Assembly (NCBI RefSeq): GCF_014164505.1 | Contig: NZ_JACJFI010000008.1 | Span: 1-41,317, forward strand | DNA: 41,317 nt | DNA from: Shewanella sp. SG41-4 | Lineage (GTDB): Bacteria; Pseudomonadota; Gammaproteobacteria; Enterobacterales; Shewanellaceae | Reading direction: 5' to 3' | In this document: piece by piece, positions 33,545 through 40,393 of the stretch | How the letters are laid out: each line of letters begins with the position of its first letter | Numbering within the stretch: position 1 is the stretch's first letter | The notes under the pieces: generated by a model | What the model saw: only the letters and a program-made list of their open reading frames with translations | Databases searched by the model: none | Told to the model about the DNA's origin: nothing | Made by a program: the position numbers and the translations under genes

Positions 33545-36500
33545 ATGATTGATATCACTATCGACGGAACAACACTTTCGCTTCCTAAAGCTGACAGCTT
33601 GTTAAAGGCAGCAAAAAACGCCGGTATTAACATCCCTAGCTTATGTGACTATTCTCACCGCCAAGAGAGACAACACTGTAATTTGTGCCAAGTACAAATC
33701 AAAAACCATGATGGCAGTTTGCGATGTGTTCGTGCCTGTGAGACACCGCTTGAAACCGGCTTAGAGGTCATTACCCAGTCAAGCCACTTGAGTCAACTTC
33801 GTCAACAAGCACTCAAAGATATTCTCAGCGACCACTTTGCTGACTGTGAAGCGCCCTGCCAAACTGCCTGCCCTGCCGGCGTTGATGTGCAGTCCTATCT
33901 TTATCATATTGGTAGAGGCGATCATAAAGAAGCCGTCAAAGTCATCAAACAGACCTTACCTTTGCCACTGTCGATTGGCCGTGTTTGTCCTGCTTTTTGT
34001 GAAACCCAATGTCGCCGCGGGCTCGTTGATGAGCCAGTGGCAATTCGCCAATTAAAACGTCATGCAGCAGACCTAGATTTACATGATGCTGAGCCTTATG
34101 TCCCACCAAAAGCACCGGCTACCAATAAGCGTATTGCCATTATCGGCAGTGGCCCAGCAGGACTCACCGCCGGCTATTATTTGTCTAATAATGGTCACGA
34201 TGTCACCATTATGGAATCTGCCCCAAAAGCAGGAGGTTGGTTACGTTACGGCATCCCTGAGTACCGCTTACCTAAAGATATTCTTGATAAAGAGATTGAA
34301 CTGCTCACCCGCAACGGACTTAAAATCGAAACGGGAGTTGAACTTGGCCGCAATACCAATTTAACTGAATTAGTGGCCAATTATGATGCTGTTTGCCTTG
34401 CGATTGGAGCGCAAAAAGCAGTACCAATGAATTACCCTGGCAGCGATTTAATCGGCTGTTATTTAGGGGTGGATTATTTGCGTGACTATTGCACCGATAA
34501 AAAATTGATTACAGGCAAAAAAGTAGCCGTCATTGGTGGCGGTAATACCGCGATTGATTGCGCCCGTACCGCTGTGCGCGATGGCGCTGATGTGACCTTA
34601 ATTTATCGTCGTAGCCGTGAGGAAATGCCAGCTGAACCCTATGAAATACATGAAGCAGAAGTCGAAGGGGTTAAGTTTCATTTTCTCACTAATCCACTGG
34701 AAAACCACAGTGACGACCAGGGCCGGGTCAAATCCATCACCTTTGCTAAAATGGCGCTCGGCGAGCCCGATGAATCTGGGCGCCGTTCTCCTAAAGCGAC
34801 TGGCAAAACCTTTGAAGAAGCATTCGACACTGTAATTCCTGCGGTATCTCAACAAGTGGATTTAGCCTTTTTAGACCAACCAGAAAATCAAATAGACACA
34901 GGGCATATCGCCCTGACCCGCTGGCATACCTTCCTTGGCTGCGAGCAAACCATGTCTGCTGGGGTGGAAAAACTTTTTGTTATCGGTGATTCCCGCACCG
35001 GCCCATCTACCGCAGTAGCAGCAGTAGCGGATGGCCGAAAAGCCGCTGAAGCCATTGAAGGATTGTTAACTGAAGGCTTAACTTGCCATTTAGAGCCTGA
35101 GCTATTTAACTCACGAAAGGCTAACAAAACAGCCTCGTTATCTGCTGAGCTATATCCCAACGCATACCCTAACTTATACCCTGAGACAGCCAAACGTCGC
35201 CGCTTAAAAATGCCTGAACTAAACCAGCTAAATCGAGCGCTTAACTTTGCCGAGGTAGAACTAGGATTCATTCCCGATGAAGCAATGCAAGAAGCGATGC
35301 GCTGTTTGGAGTGTGCTTGCCAAGCCAATACCGATTGTAAGTTACGCGATTATGCCACCGAATATAAAGTAGACGGAAAAACACTGGATCAAACCAAAGC
35401 GCGTAAATTTAAAGTCGATAACAGTGCGCCTTTTATTACTTTCGACGCTAATCGCTGTATCAGTTGCGCCGCTTGTATTGATGCTTGTCATCAACAAAGT
35501 GGTCATAACGTTATCAGCTTTGAAGCCAATAGTTATCAAGCGCTACCCGATGCTGCAACAACAGGCATTAGCCGCAACGCCCCTCGTGTTGGCTTTACTG
35601 CGTCGATGAATGACAGCGATTGTGTGCAATGCGGTAACTGTGTTCAAGTTTGCCCTACTGGCGCTTTGGTTGATGCCCGCGATAAAACCCAAGGTAGCGA
35701 CAGAGCGTTAACCAAAACCTCAACCGTGTGCACATATTGTGGCGTTGGTTGCCGGGTTGAACTGCATGTCGACCAAACCAAAAATCATGTAATGCGAGTA
35801 TCTGGCGATACTCAATCAGTGGTCAATGAAGGCATGCTATGTGTTAAAGGACGCTCTGGTTTTGATTTTTTAAACAGTCCTAAACGCCTTACAACGCCAT
35901 TAATTCGCAAAAATGGTCAGCTAGAACCGGCCACTTGGTCTGAAGCCATTAGTTATATAGCACAGCAACTTCAACCGATTAAAGATGCTGCTGGGCCAAG
36001 CAAGTTTGCGGCATTGTCTTCAGCTAAATGCACTAATGAAGAAAACTATTTAATGCAAAAGTTCGCCCGTAGCATTATGGGCACTAATAACATCGATCAC
36101 TGCGCGCGACTATGTCATTCATCATCTGTTGCTGGGTTATCCGATACCATTGGCGGCGGGGCCATGACCAATGATATTCCCAGCATTAAAGACTCAGATG
36201 TGATTTTTATCATCGGCTCCGATACCACCAGCGCCCATCCTATTATCGCCTCTCACATTAAAAGAGCGGTCAGCCAACACGGCGCGCGCTTAATTGTCGC
36301 GGATCCAAAGAAAACCACTATCGCAGACAGTGCCCATTTATATGTGTCACATAAACCGGGCACAGATGTGATGTTACTCAATGCCATCATGCAGCAAATT
36401 ATCATCAATAACTGGCAAGACATGCACTACATCAATAGCCGTATTGAAGACTATGAATTGCTCAAGCAAGAAGTGATGAAGCCAGATTACAACTTAGCCA

Positions 36501-37774
36501 ATGCAGCGTTGATTACAGGCGTGAGCGCCGAAGACATTGCCGCTATGGCTAAAATGATTGGCACAGCAAACAAAACTGCCTTGTATTATGCCATGGGGAT
36601 TACTCAACATACTTCGGGTTATGACAATGTGGTGTCCACCTCCAACTTGCAATTGCTGTGTGGCAACATTGGCGTAACGGGCGGCGGACTAAACCCACTT
36701 CGTGGCCAAAGTAATGTTCAAGGCGCTTGTGATATGGGCGCGTTACCCAATTATTATCCCGGTTATCAGCAAGTCGATAACCCACTCAATAACGTTAAGT
36801 TTGCCAAAGCTTGGGGCAATACTTCGCTGTCGTCAGAACCTGGATTAGCAGCAACTGAAATCATGCAGGCGATTGTGAAAGGTAAACTCGATGCTCTGTA
36901 TGTTTTGGGAGAAAACCCAGTGCTAAGCGATCCGGACCAAGCTCACGTAATCGCTGCACTATCCAAAATTAAATTTATGGTAGTGCAAGATATCTTTTTA
37001 ACCGAAACCGCGCAGATGGCCCATGTGGTACTACCCGCAACTGCCTTTGCCGAAAAAGATGGCCATTTCACTAATACAGAACGTCGGGTACAACAATTAC
37101 GTGTCGCGTTAACCCCTCCTGGGGATGCGATTGTAGACTGGAAAATTATCCAAATGATTGCCAACAGCCTTGATGCTAATTGGAATTACCACAGCACCAA
37201 AGATATCTGGCAAGAAATTAACCACGTCACCCCGCAATATCAAGGCCTTACCTGGCAACGACTTGAACATAAGGTAGATGGTTTACAGTGGCCATGCTTT
37301 GATGAAAACCATCCTGGCACACCGATTTTGCATACCGAAACATTTTTACGCGGTAAAGGCAGGATGATGCCAGTGAGCTATCGACTACCTGCCGAAATGC
37401 CCGATAGCGAATATCCATTAACCCTTTCAACAGGCCGTTTACTGGAACAATTCCATACTGGCACTATGACCCGTAAAACCCCGGAACTGGATATTAAAGG
37501 CTCGCCCAGAGTAATGATTTCGGTTTTTGATGCTGAGCAATTGGGAGTCAATAACGGTGATATGTTGAAACTGAGTACTCGCCGCGGAGAAATAGACATA
37601 GCCGCCTTTGTGACTAAGCGGGCTCAGGTAGGAGTATTATTTTTACCGTTCCACTTTGCCGAAGCAGCAGCCAATAAACTGACCATTAATGCATTGGATC
37701 CCATTGCAAAAATTCCAGAATATAAGGTGTGTGCCGTTAAAGCAGAAAAGTCACTGCTGCCAAGTGTTGGATGA
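33545..37774 (+). CDS. Fused NAD(P)-flavin / molybdopterin formate dehydrogenase-like protein
   Basis: A 1409-residue soluble fusion. Residues 1-75 are a 2Fe-2S domain (C34, C45, C48, C61). Residues about 85-180 are the GltD-type FeS helical domain (CEAPCQTACPAGVDV, VCPAFCETQCRRG). Residues about 197-500 carry FAD (IAIIGSGPAGL) and NAD(P)H (VAVIGGGNTAID) Rossmann folds. Two ferredoxin-type 4Fe-4S motifs follow (CISCAACIDAC about 638, CVQCGNCVQVCPTG about 693). From 729 comes the catalytic molybdopterin part with its 4Fe-4S (CTYCGVGC), active-site Cys857 in LCHSSSVAGL (Sec in E. coli FdhF), and the C-terminal cofactor domain (STGRLLEQFHTGTMT). Formate oxidation coupled to NAD(P)+ is the best inference. 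No fdhD or other subunit is adjacent. Confidence 0.87.
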   Translation: MIDITIDGTTLSLPKADSLLKAAKNAGINIPSLCDYSHRQERQHCNLCQVQIKNHDGSLRCVRACETPLETGLEVITQSSHLSQLRQQALKDILSDHFADCEAPCQTACPAGVDVQSYLYHIGRGDHKEAVKVIKQTLPLPLSIGRVCPAFCETQCRRGLVDEPVAIRQLKRHAADLDLHDAEPYVPPKAPATNKRIAIIGSGPAGLTAGYYLSNNGHDVTIMESAPKAGGWLRYGIPEYRLPKDILDKEIELLTRNGLKIETGVELGRNTNLTELVANYDAVCLAIGAQKAVPMNYPGSDLIGCYLGVDYLRDYCTDKKLITGKKVAVIGGGNTAIDCARTAVRDGADVTLIYRRSREEMPAEPYEIHEAEVEGVKFHFLTNPLENHSDDQGRVKSITFAKMALGEPDESGRRSPKATGKTFEEAFDTVIPAVSQQVDLAFLDQPENQIDTGHIALTRWHTFLGCEQTMSAGVEKLFVIGDSRTGPSTAVAAVADGRKAAEAIEGLLTEGLTCHLEPELFNSRKANKTASLSAELYPNAYPNLYPETAKRRRLKMPELNQLNRALNFAEVELGFIPDEAMQEAMRCLECACQANTDCKLRDYATEYKVDGKTLDQTKARKFKVDNSAPFITFDANRCISCAACIDACHQQSGHNVISFEANSYQALPDAATTGISRNAPRVGFTASMNDSDCVQCGNCVQVCPTGALVDARDKTQGSDRALTKTSTVCTYCGVGCRVELHVDQTKNHVMRVSGDTQSVVNEGMLCVKGRSGFDFLNSPKRLTTPLIRKNGQLEPATWSEAISYIAQQLQPIKDAAGPSKFAALSSAKCTNEENYLMQKFARSIMGTNNIDHCARLCHSSSVAGLSDTIGGGAMTNDIPSIKDSDVIFIIGSDTTSAHPIIASHIKRAVSQHGARLIVADPKKTTIADSAHLYVSHKPGTDVMLLNAIMQQIIINNWQDMHYINSRIEDYELLKQEVMKPDYNLANAALITGVSAEDIAAMAKMIGTANKTALYYAMGITQHTSGYDNVVSTSNLQLLCGNIGVTGGGLNPLRGQSNVQGACDMGALPNYYPGYQQVDNPLNNVKFAKAWGNTSLSSEPGLAATEIMQAIVKGKLDALYVLGENPVLSDPDQAHVIAALSKIKFMVVQDIFLTETAQMAHVVLPATAFAEKDGHFTNTERRVQQLRVALTPPGDAIVDWKIIQMIANSLDANWNYHSTKDIWQEINHVTPQYQGLTWQRLEHKVDGLQWPCFDENHPGTPILHTETFLRGKGRMMPVSYRLPAEMPDSEYPLTLSTGRLLEQFHTGTMTRKTPELDIKGSPRVMISVFDAEQLGVNNGDMLKLSTRRGEIDIAAFVTKRAQVGVLFLPFHFAEAAANKLTINALDPIAKIPEYKVCAVKAEKSLLPSVG

Positions 37775-37785
37775 CAAGCGGTAAC

Positions 37786-38009
37786 GAGCGATATCAAGCG
37801 ATGACAAACGCCTAGGTGCTAGATCCTTCTATCCGTAAGCGCACCGTTCGCTTGTCACCGCTTGTTATCATTTTTTAAGCTATCCCTATCCCAGAAATAA
37901 TGAGCGGTATCAAGCGATAACAAGCCAAGCGCCTAGGTGCGAGATCCTTCTATCCGTAAGCGCAGCGTTCGCTTATCACCGCTTGTTATCATTTTTTAAG
38001 CTATCCCTA
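37786..38009. repeat. Duplicated about 105-bp hairpin-forming intergenic element
   Basis: Two direct copies occupy 37786-37888 and 37902-38009. Their 80-bp cores (37809-37888 and 37930-38009) differ at only three positions. Each contains an outer pairing (in copy 2, GATAACAAGC at 37916-37925 with GCTTGTTATC at 37981-37990), an inner TAAGCG/CGCTTA stem, and a T6 run just after the outer arm. This resembles a palindromic extragenic repeat and could also terminate transcription of the formate dehydrogenase-like gene. Confidence 0.85.
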
Positions 38010-38015
38010 GTAGGT

Positions 38016-38873
38016 TTAGCGCAACAATAACAATGGGATGTGGCTTTTACTGATCATCCGTGTCGTGTTGCTACCAACAAAAAACTCACGAATACGTGAA
38101 TGACCATAAGCACCCATCACCATTAAATCAATTTGGTGTGCTAGCTGGTAAGCTTCAAGAGCCGCCTGCACCTCGCCCTGACAAACCGCAGTTGTCACCT
38201 CAAAACCAGCTTCGGTAAGAGAGCCTGCAACTGAAGTCAATTCGGTTTGCGCTTGAGACTGATTGTCAGACACCATCACTAAATGACATTCGAGCCCTTT
38301 AAGTAGTGGGCTGCTTTTCACGCGTTCAAGCACTGTTTTCGAGGTGGCACTGCCGTCATAAGCAATCATAAAACGGCTTGGCATTGTAAAATCAGCCATC
38401 ACCACTAAAATCGGCTGTTTAAGGGTGCGAATAACACTTTCTAAATGACTGCCAATCGCTTGCGCCTGATCCTGATGTTGCTCACCTTGGCGACCAATAA
38501 CCACTAGTCTGGCATCGACTTCTTGCTCAAGCAGCGTTTCCACTAAATCCCCATGGCGCTGCAGCGTTTGCACCGCAACTGAAGGCTGTGCCGCCAAGAT
38601 GCACGCTTGAGCATCTTGTAGCATATATTTACCTTGTTCGAGCGCGAGTTTACTCATGCGCCCTTCAAGTTCAACCATCTCAGCAAGTAAATGCTCTCGG
38701 CTACCAAGGCCAATATTTCCCGACAGATTTAACTCTGTAGGATAGGCAGACTTATCCAATACATGTAATAACGTCACAGGGGCGCTCAACTGCATAGCCG
38801 CCCACCCACTAGCATCAGATACCGCGCGTGTTGCTTTTGAACCATCGATACAGGCAATCACATTTGTCATCAT
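38016..38873 (-). CDS. Universal stress protein with two UspA domains
   Basis: A 285-residue cytosolic protein with two tandem Usp folds (about 4-140 and 150-285). The second has the ATP-binding signature G-x2-G-x9-G-S in MGAYGHSRIREFFVGSNT; the first has a modified form (IGRQGEQHQDQAQAIGSH) with one extra residue, so it may not bind nucleotide. Strand one of each domain is clear (VIACIDGSKATRA, FMIAYDGSATSK). AAGGA lies five bases before the first of two adjacent ATGs. It follows the SulP transporter gene by 29 bp and is probably co-transcribed with it; a regulatory role on the transporter or energy sensing is inferred. Confidence 0.9.
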   Translation of the reverse strand: MMTNVIACIDGSKATRAVSDASGWAAMQLSAPVTLLHVLDKSAYPTELNLSGNIGLGSREHLLAEMVELEGRMSKLALEQGKYMLQDAQACILAAQPSVAVQTLQRHGDLVETLLEQEVDARLVVIGRQGEQHQDQAQAIGSHLESVIRTLKQPILVVMADFTMPSRFMIAYDGSATSKTVLERVKSSPLLKGLECHLVMVSDNQSQAQTELTSVAGSLTEAGFEVTTAVCQGEVQAALEAYQLAHQIDLMVMGAYGHSRIREFFVGSNTTRMISKSHIPLLLLR

Positions 38874-38902: not shown

Positions 38903-40393
38903 TTAGTGACCTGACATCATTTTTTCAACGTCTTCGGGTTTATCATGCACACCAAATTTATCCACAATGGTAGCGCTGGCTTCATTAAGGCCAATTAACT
39001 CAACTTCAGTGCCCTCGCGGCGGAATTTAATCACCACTTTATCGAGTGCCGATACCGCAGTAATATCCCAAAAATGCGCCAAAGATAAATCAATAGTGAC
39101 TTTTTCAACCACTTCTCTGAAATCAAATGAGTTGCTGAACTTATCTGCTGAGGCAAAAAAGACTTGGCCAATAATTTGATAATGACGACCGGCTTCTGCT
39201 GTAGTGTCGGTGCTTTTAACCACCATAAAACGACCCACTTTATTAGCAAAAAATAACGAGGCAAGTAACACACCTACAAATACCCCAATCGCTAAATTAT
39301 GGGTAGCGACAACCACAACAACTGTGGCAACCATCACAAGATTGGTCGATAAAGGATGATGTTTAAGATTACGGATAGAATCCCAAGAGAAGGTTCCAAT
39401 AGACACCATGATCATCACGGCAACAAGTGCAGCCATAGGGATCATTTTCAACCAATCACCTAAAAACACAATCAAGATAAGCAAAAACAAACCGGCAGAG
39501 AAAGTCGACAAACGTCCACGCCCGCCTGATTTAACGTTGATAATAGATTGACCAATCATGGCACAACCTGCCATGCCGCCCATTAAACCTGCACCAATAT
39601 TCGCAATACCTTGGCCTTTACATTCGCGATTTTTATCACTTGGCGTATCAGTTAAATCATCAACAATGGTCGCTGTCATCATTGATTCTAATAAACCCAC
39701 AACAGCAAGACCCGCTGAATAAGGAAAGATGATGATTAACGTTTCAAGGGTTAATGGCACTTCTGGCCACAAGAAGATTGGTAACGTATCAGGAAGTTGT
39801 CCCATGTCGCCTACGGTACGGATGTCTAATCCCATGTAAACCGCAAAAATGGTTAAGCCGACGATACATATTAAAGGTGACGGCAACGATTTACCAATAA
39901 CAGGGATTAATGGGAATAAATAAATAATCCCCAGTCCTGCTGCGGTCATGGCATACACATGCCACGTCACATTTGTGAGCTCTGGTAACTGTGCCATAAA
40001 AATCAAAATGGCGAGTGCGTTCACAAAGCCAGTCACCACTGAACGCGAGACAAAACGCATCAAACTGCCAAGCTTTAAATAACCTGCTGCAATTTGAAAT
40101 ATGCCGGTCAATAACGTTGCCGCTAATAAATACTCAAGACCATGTTCTTTAACTAAGGTCACCATCAATAGCGCCATAGCACCCGTGGCCGCAGAAATCA
40201 TTCCAGGACGTCCACCCGTAAACGCGATAACCACAGCGATACAGAATGAAGCATACAGACCCACTTTAGGATCAACCCCAGCAATAATAGAAAAGGCTAT
40301 CGCCTCAGGAATTAACGCAAGTGCGACGACTATACCTGCTAACAGATCTCCACGGATGTTGGAAAACCATTCTTTTTTCATGTTTTGTATCAT
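38903..40393 (-). CDS. SulP-family anion transporter with STAS domain
   Basis: A 496-residue transporter with 10-14 membrane segments and a C-terminal STAS domain from about residue 410. The SLC26/SulP start ([30 protein letters not shown]) and the motif [25 protein letters not shown] are clear. The STAS strand-loop is [21 protein letters not shown], where the Ser/Thr phospho-acceptor position is replaced near DITAV. Members carry sulfate, bicarbonate (BicA-like) or dicarboxylates; pairing with a Usp gene is common but does not settle the substrate. Two candidate ATGs four codons apart exist; the first has AGAG upstream and is kept. Confidence 0.9.

Follow-up and report, generated by a model that had tools for sequence, protein, structure and literature searches.

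A single-chain GltD-formate dehydrogenase fusion in Shewanella as a predicted partner-free formate:NADP+ oxidoreductase

What reaction is carried out by a protein that joins a GltD-like flavin module, NuoG-like iron-sulphur clusters and an FdhF-like formate dehydrogenase (FDH) domain in one polypeptide? The question is raised by a gene in the 41,317-nucleotide stretch of Shewanella sp. SG41-4 DNA analysed here (contig NZ_JACJFI010000008.1, positions 1 to 41,317; referred to as the window). The gene is a single frame at positions 33545 to 37774 on the plus strand, with an ATG start and no internal stops, that encodes 1409 amino acids (aa). We propose that its product is probably a partner-free formate:NADP+ oxidoreductase, a predicted activity, and that it is presumably located in the cytosol. 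The features on which this proposal depends, with the basis of each in parentheses, are as follows.

33545..37774, plus strand: whole gene, single-chain GltD-FDH fusion, 1409 aa (open reading frame and translation)
33545..33781, plus strand: N-terminal [2Fe-2S] domain, Fer2_4, residues 1-79, with C34, C45, C48 and C65 (Pfam, alignment)
33842..34078, plus strand: GltD iron-sulphur part, Fer4_20, residues 100-178, with C101, C105, C109, C148, C152 and C156 (Pfam, alignment)
34130..35035, plus strand: FAD/NAD(P) part with two dinucleotide folds, Pyr_redox_2, residues 196-497, with the FAD motif GSGPAG at 201-206 (Pfam, alignment)
34535..34612, plus strand: NADP motif GGGNTA...YRR, residues 331-356 (alignment, PMC8965080)
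35303..35338, plus strand: NuoG-like [4Fe-4S] ligands C587, C590, C592 and C598 (alignment)
35456..35653, plus strand: two [4Fe-4S] ferredoxin-type sites, residues 638-703; Pfam Fer4 dicluster at 637-707 (Pfam, alignment)
35711..35878, plus strand: FDH proximal [4Fe-4S] domain, Molybdop_Fe4S4, residues 723-778, with Lys768, equivalent to Escherichia coli FdhF Lys44 (Pfam, alignment)
35885..37165, plus strand: molybdopterin oxidoreductase domain, Molybdopterin, residues 781-1207 (Pfam, family models)
36113..36118, plus strand: catalytic Cys857-His858, equivalent to FdhF Sec140-His141 (alignment)
36701..36709, plus strand: Arg1053 and Gln1055, equivalent to FdhF Arg333 and Gln335 (alignment)
37418..37735, plus strand: molybdopterin dinucleotide binding domain, Molydop_binding, residues 1292-1397 (Pfam)

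The domains follow the order [2Fe-2S], GltD, NuoG-like [4Fe-4S], two [4Fe-4S] and FDH; the GltD module therefore sits between the [2Fe-2S] domain and the remainder of a NuoG/FdhA-like N terminus. A first-pass annotation had described a 1409-residue fusion of GltD-like, NuoG-like and FdhF-like parts, with Cys857 in the catalytic part and the flavin module placed before it. The frame and the Pfam domains bear out this layout: Cys857 lies within the motif DHCARLCHSS, and the GltD part (residues 100-497) precedes an FDH domain that begins at residue 723. The GltD-like model PRK12814 matched residues 2-656 with a score of 611, against a cut-off of 916. By homology, the GltD iron-sulphur part is predicted to hold two [4Fe-4S] sites, and the whole chain would be expected to carry one [2Fe-2S] cluster, six [4Fe-4S] clusters, one FAD and one bis-pterin metal site.

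The identification of the protein as an FDH, with predicted activity, is largely supported. It scored 824.8 bits against the FDH alpha subunit model TIGR01591 (cut-off, 666.25), and Lys44, Sec140, His141, Arg333 and Gln335 of FdhF from E. coli MG1655 align with Lys768, Cys857, His858, Arg1053 and Gln1055, respectively. The catalytic part could in principle belong to a different molybdenum enzyme with a bis-molybdopterin guanine dinucleotide cofactor, either a nitrate reductase or an AegA-like uric acid enzyme, since the NasC and AegA models match the protein as family relatives; however, both scores are far under their cut-offs (503 against 1100 for NasC and 230 against 1003 for AegA). Furthermore, the Met and Thr found at the His858 and Arg1053 positions in the nitrate reductase rows (two Nap and two Nas, of which L007 and L128 were labelled by tree and similarity in this analysis) are absent from the window protein. 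The His is itself not universal among annotated FDHs, since Gln occupies this position in L127, an annotated FDH from Pantoea.

When 70 catalytic parts were placed in a quick tree, a 66-row set that included all of the FDH rows was split from Nas and Nap with a Shimodaira-Hasegawa-like approximate likelihood ratio (SH-aLRT) value of 99, and 24 gammaproteobacterial fusions formed one clade with a support of 100. This tree was built without bootstrap and has 21 of 66 inner branches open, the positions of its long rows are unsure, and a long-branch warning was issued by the program for Nas with Nap, among others; in addition, the three-row outgroup did not form one side of a branch, one outgroup row was misplaced, and a YdeP row fell inside the FDH set. 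The first-pass annotation had held that a catalytic part clustering with nitrate reductases would contradict its FDH reading, and no such clustering was observed. Based on the model scores, the absence of the Met and Thr residues and the tree, a nitrate reductase or other molybdenum enzyme was rejected, and we regard such an identity as very improbable. Two copies of the FdhD sulphurtransferase, for which a search elsewhere in the genome had been recommended at the outset, were found above the cut-off in the host genome.

The codon aligned with Cys857 was compared in 16 fused relatives taken from titled records, mostly metagenome-assembled genomes (MAGs). It was an in-frame TGA in ten, flanked by open frame in both directions, and Cys in the other six, three of which are from Shewanella. 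The TGA is read here as a putative selenocysteine codon, and exchange between selenocysteine and Cys at this position speaks strongly for an active FDH site.

If formate is oxidized, which acceptor receives the electrons? Among 32 distinct gammaproteobacterial fusions (36 rows minus four identical copies), 41 of 42 ligand, FAD, NADP and catalytic positions were invariant, the remaining position being C48, which is Thr in one protein. The YRR sequence, which contains Arg355-Arg356, was kept in all 32, and the GGG...YRR motif aligns with the same motif in NfnI (5jca_L), StnC (8oh5_C) and 9bov_A. The closest precedent is Fdh3 of Thermococcus onnurineus, a reversible enzyme reported in 2022 that has a tungsten-containing Fdh3A with Cys-His-Arg, an NfnI-like Fdh3B with Arg204-Arg205, two further iron-sulphur proteins (Fdh3G1 and Fdh3G2), a strong preference for NADP+ and CO2 reduction with NADPH (PMC8965080). 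Like Fdh3, the window protein combines a Cys-His-Arg FDH site with an NfnI-like FAD/NADP part and an Arg-Arg pair, with the FAD fold and the pair evident as GSGPAG, GGGNTA and YRR (PMC8965080). Arg355-Arg356 are likely to hold the 2'-phosphate of NADP. The first-pass annotation had proposed NAD(P)+ dependence; the Arg pair and the Fdh3 precedent (PMC8965080) favour the NADP+ side of this proposal, and the NAD+ side appears less favoured.

The acceptor could nevertheless be different, in that a single-chain FDH might use NAD+, or both nucleotides, at its flavin module or pass electrons to ferredoxin or flavodoxin. Its choice is read from a motif alone, Fdh3 also reduces ferredoxin (PMC8965080), and the first Arg of YRR is replaced by Gln, Pro or Ser in 11 of 13 fusions from outside the gammaproteobacteria (L014 and L018 keep it), so that the acceptor may have changed during evolution. 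Against this stands the uniform and NfnI-aligned motif of the gammaproteobacterial fusions, and we consider this alternative unlikely. The pattern suggests that NADP+ use may be confined to the gammaproteobacterial fusions and a small number of other branches. The fusions without the first Arg (L012, L013, L015, L016, L017, L019 to L023 and L061) come from anaerobes and lie mostly beside carbon monoxide dehydrogenase/acetyl-CoA synthase (CODH/ACS) genes; with this Arg lost, their acceptor may differ.

Does the enzyme need a partner? Searches of the host genome (5.0 Mb in 808 contigs, 99.98% complete) for NuoE (PF01257) and the NuoF C-terminal domain (PF10589) were negative, whereas each family was detected in the same way in 7 of 14 control genomes. 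Likewise, no recurring redox gene was found beside the fusion in 24 gammaproteobacterial loci, where family identification covered the recurring clusters and not every neighbour. These two results support the single-protein enzyme envisaged by the first-pass annotation. The NuoE/NuoF-type partner of FdsABG-like enzymes was thus not found, and the separate flavin and iron-sulphur subunits of Fdh3 are replaced by one chain, which makes the protein a variant of the Fdh3-like kind and not a plain member.

The nearest solved structures of the N-terminal half (9bov_A, NfnA [9n5u_A] and StnC [8oh5_C]) point to another possibility, namely, that the protein is a transhydrogenase subunit of the Stn type, that its FDH domain is inactive and that it depends on HydBC-like (NuoE/NuoF-type) partners. 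StnC of Sporomusa ovata and 9bov_A have the same order of [2Fe-2S], GltD, NuoG-like clusters and FdhF-like domain. The StnC structure shows FAD, NADPH and clusters, its FDH domain is inactive, the branch leading to that domain was termed a nonfunctional remnant, and StnC works with the HydBC-like StnAB (PMC10482914). In the window protein, by contrast, the branch ends at an intact site, and relatives carry TGA at the catalytic codon. A partner-dependent Stn-like complex was ruled out for this host on the absence of matches to the NuoE and NuoF C-terminal families, and we give a Stn-like role for this protein hardly any credence.

The proposed formate:NADP+ oxidoreductase would work as follows. 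Formate would be oxidized to CO2 at a bis-pterin molybdenum (or tungsten) centre held by Cys857 and aided by His858 and Arg1053. Electrons would then pass one at a time from the proximal [4Fe-4S] cluster through the two ferredoxin-type sites to the NuoG-like site, and from there through the two GltD [4Fe-4S] sites to the GltD FAD, where they would be gathered and delivered as a hydride to NADP+ at the Arg355-Arg356 site. The [2Fe-2S] domain may be a side station or a leftover dock for a NuoE/NuoF-type partner, of a type that was not found here. The cofactors and the route are modelled on homologues: residues 2-710 are homologous to StnC and 9bov_A, with all cluster ligands lining up, and residues 587-1405 are homologous to Rhodobacter capsulatus FdsA (6tg9_A). 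These templates overlap in the shared clusters at residues 587-710, which makes a continuous electron route plausible. In the cell, the enzyme probably makes NADPH from formate produced by pyruvate formate-lyase (PFL), and it may be reversible; the host genome encodes one formate/nitrite transporter and one PFL-like protein.

Several observations weigh against this proposal. AlphaFold gave a weak model of residues 1-1200 (mean predicted local distance difference test [pLDDT] score of 71 and predicted template modelling score of 0.46, with many cluster loops below a pLDDT of 50), which is unfit for cluster-to-cluster distances. The partner search covered the NuoE and NuoF C-terminal families, and a ferredoxin or other small protein may serve as a partner. 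The SIMPL and LysR neighbours in the window give no pointer to formate. There is also a physiological point, which involves SO_0988, a Shewanella oneidensis gene that may be the orthologue of the fusion. SO_0988 has been named merely as a molybdopterin-binding oxidoreductase (PMC8371737). A strain missing only three other FDHs, S. oneidensis JG2957, has been employed to keep formate from being oxidized to CO2 (PMC12093963). If SO_0988 is indeed the orthologue, it may contribute little formate oxidation in JG2957 and be silent or run otherwise there.

How widespread is the fusion, and where did it come from? The window protein is 97% identical to that of Shewanella frigidimarina KCTC 23109 (L009), and 93 of 129 Shewanella genomes, the window's own included, had a match at an E value of ≤1e-200. 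One frame covered at least 1,361 of the 1,409 residues in 88 of these genomes (in one of them, G051, a TAG is listed inside the match), so that the fusion is neither a chance product nor an assembly artefact. The gene is fragmented or split between frames in G055, G067, G083, G092 and G122, possibly through decay or assembly breaks. Matches were found in 59 of 394 genomes sampled from the order; four of these hold an unfused catalytic part (query residues 584-1404) and one a fragment, so that 54 genomes, spread over six genera and four families, have the fusion. When 369 genomes from across the class were sampled, the same cut-off recovered the fusion solely from the window's own genome, together with one unfused match. 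The scan for relatives kept the best 80 loci and is not a census.

A single origin of all fusions was rejected for the catalytic part, where one clade of 29 fused rows had an approximately unbiased test P value (p-AU) of 4e-5. A clade of 18 gammaproteobacterial fusions and eight Wood-Ljungdahl fusions (L012 to L014, L016, L017, L019, L021 and L061), a grouping chosen after the tree was seen, was compatible with the data (p-AU, 0.345). In a tree of the GltD part, built without StnC rows, all 30 fused rows grouped together (support, 88/93).

The Wood-Ljungdahl relatives bear on the direction of the reaction. Upstream of the fusion, acetyl-CoA pathway genes were present in 10 of 12 nongammaproteobacterial loci compared (L015 was outside the comparison, L018 has other neighbours, and L020 gave no result): the corrinoid protein gamma subunit in ten, the acetyl-CoA synthase/CODH alpha-beta genes in nine, a delta-subunit gene in seven and a methyltransferase in six. 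Several contigs end there, and the names were taken from one representative per cluster. The fusion beside CODH/ACS genes is most likely the CO2-reducing FDH of the Wood-Ljungdahl pathway. By extension, the Shewanella enzyme might run mainly in reverse and reduce CO2 at the expense of NADPH, which is probably what its Desulfobacterota relatives do; this location of fused relatives and the compatible clade are in keeping with such a role. However, all four CODH/ACS gene clusters are absent from the 24 loci of gammaproteobacteria, and NADPH is a weaker reductant than formate. We therefore view a mainly CO2-reducing function as improbable, formate oxidation with NADP+ being preferred.

A broader evolutionary scenario can be envisioned, which we put forward tentatively and with more doubt than confidence. 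The gammaproteobacterial form may have descended from a selenocysteine-containing CO2 reductase of Wood-Ljungdahl anaerobes, exchanging selenocysteine for Cys and gaining or keeping the NADP site. In facultative marine bacteria, it would now supply NADPH on its own or act as a reversible CO2 reductase, coupled in some lineages to a neighbouring SulP transporter that moves formate or bicarbonate. It would then represent a distinct and previously unstudied class of partner-free formate:NADP+ oxidoreductases.

Two other joinings of these modules were observed. In a Halanaerobiales MAG (L018:4069-10086), a NuoF-like gene lies directly before a GltD-FDH fusion with an intact Cys site; the two could form a complex that resembles Stn but has a working FDH, and that is perhaps bifurcating. 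At L024:4351-10157, the identical modules are joined otherwise: a 1022-aa NuoF-GltD fusion adjoins an unfused FdhA with an in-frame TGA.

How much of this was already known? The pairing of GltD with the DMSO reductase family was listed as new in 2018, in a single line of Table 4 of PMC6147048 that may include StnC-type proteins; an NADP-linked FDH with an NfnI-like subunit was described in 2022, and the gene itself is common. Unlike Fdh3, which consists of four separate proteins and contains tungsten (PMC8965080), the window protein is a single polypeptide that also has a [2Fe-2S] domain and a NuoG-like cluster, and it looks like the Fdh3 complex in one chain. R. capsulatus FdsA shares the NuoG-like N-terminal clusters and FDH domain but has no GltD module and reaches NAD+ via the separate FdsB (PMC10671435). 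E. coli FdhF and AegA, for which one pathway has been proposed (PMC8097209), offer FdhF-type catalysis and a GltD-type flavoprotein, respectively, in two unfused proteins. No biochemical study of the fused protein was found in the open-access PMC literature, subscription papers lying outside this search. The novelty lies in reading the gammaproteobacterial proteins as single-chain enzymes that need no partner, an interpretation backed by the missing partner families, the selenocysteine/Cys codon and the conserved NADP site. NAD+ is the acceptor of most FDHs (PMC8965080), and engineering has been used to adapt an NAD-linked metal FDH to NADP+ (PMC10671435). If confirmed, an enzyme that is naturally NADP-linked and encoded by one gene would lend itself to simple tests of reversible formate/NADPH exchange and to one-carbon biotechnology. 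It would also reveal an overlooked route of formate metabolism in Shewanella, where three other major FDHs were counted in a recent study (PMC12093963), and in its relatives.

Do the neighbouring genes offer a clue? Two of them, identified by neighbour comparison, have a possible functional link to the fusion.

38016..38873, minus strand: Usp-domain protein, paired with the SulP gene
38903..40393, minus strand: SulP-family anion transporter with a STAS domain

Of 37 further loci, 10 have the pair at a distance of no more than 5 kb from the fusion, a recurrence that was noticed after the fact. In L009 and L141 to L143, all from the same Shewanella subclade, the pair is convergent with the fusion and Usp comes first; in L109 and L136 to L140 (six of the eight loci of family f2), it is on the same strand as the fusion and SulP comes first. 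Between the two families, identity is 78 to 80% for SulP, about 60% for the fusion and about 41% for Usp. SulP itself is common: 43 of the 129 genomes from the genus and 98 of the 394 from the order had a match at an E value of ≤1e-120, mostly elsewhere in the genome and away from the fusion. The fusion and SulP are ≤10 kb apart in 6 of 37 genus genomes that have both (G000, G031, G051, G072, G090 and G122, the last with both genes broken), and likewise in 6 of 7 such f2 genomes; as read from the coordinates, this is so in none of the other families that have both. That the pair is placed beside the fusion in two families, with a different arrangement in each, may point to a connection of the FDH with an anion carrier, whose substrate is perhaps formate or bicarbonate. 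Matches to curated SulP-family models were under the NCBIfam cut-offs. Three more clusters recur in four or five of the 24 gammaproteobacterial loci, all from broad families: MCP, GGDEF (both by Pfam) and LysR, the last named from the window's own member.

Around the gene, promoter- and terminator-like sites were no more frequent than in shuffled sequences, and an Rfam scan of the window gave no match at the gathering score. Directly downstream, at positions 37772-38009, there are two 84-nucleotide copies that are 95% identical, lie 121 apart and contain shorter sub-repeats. This repeat occurs at five places in the whole genome, two beside the gene and three partial ones on contigs C144 and C154, and it looks like a small intergenic repeat element.

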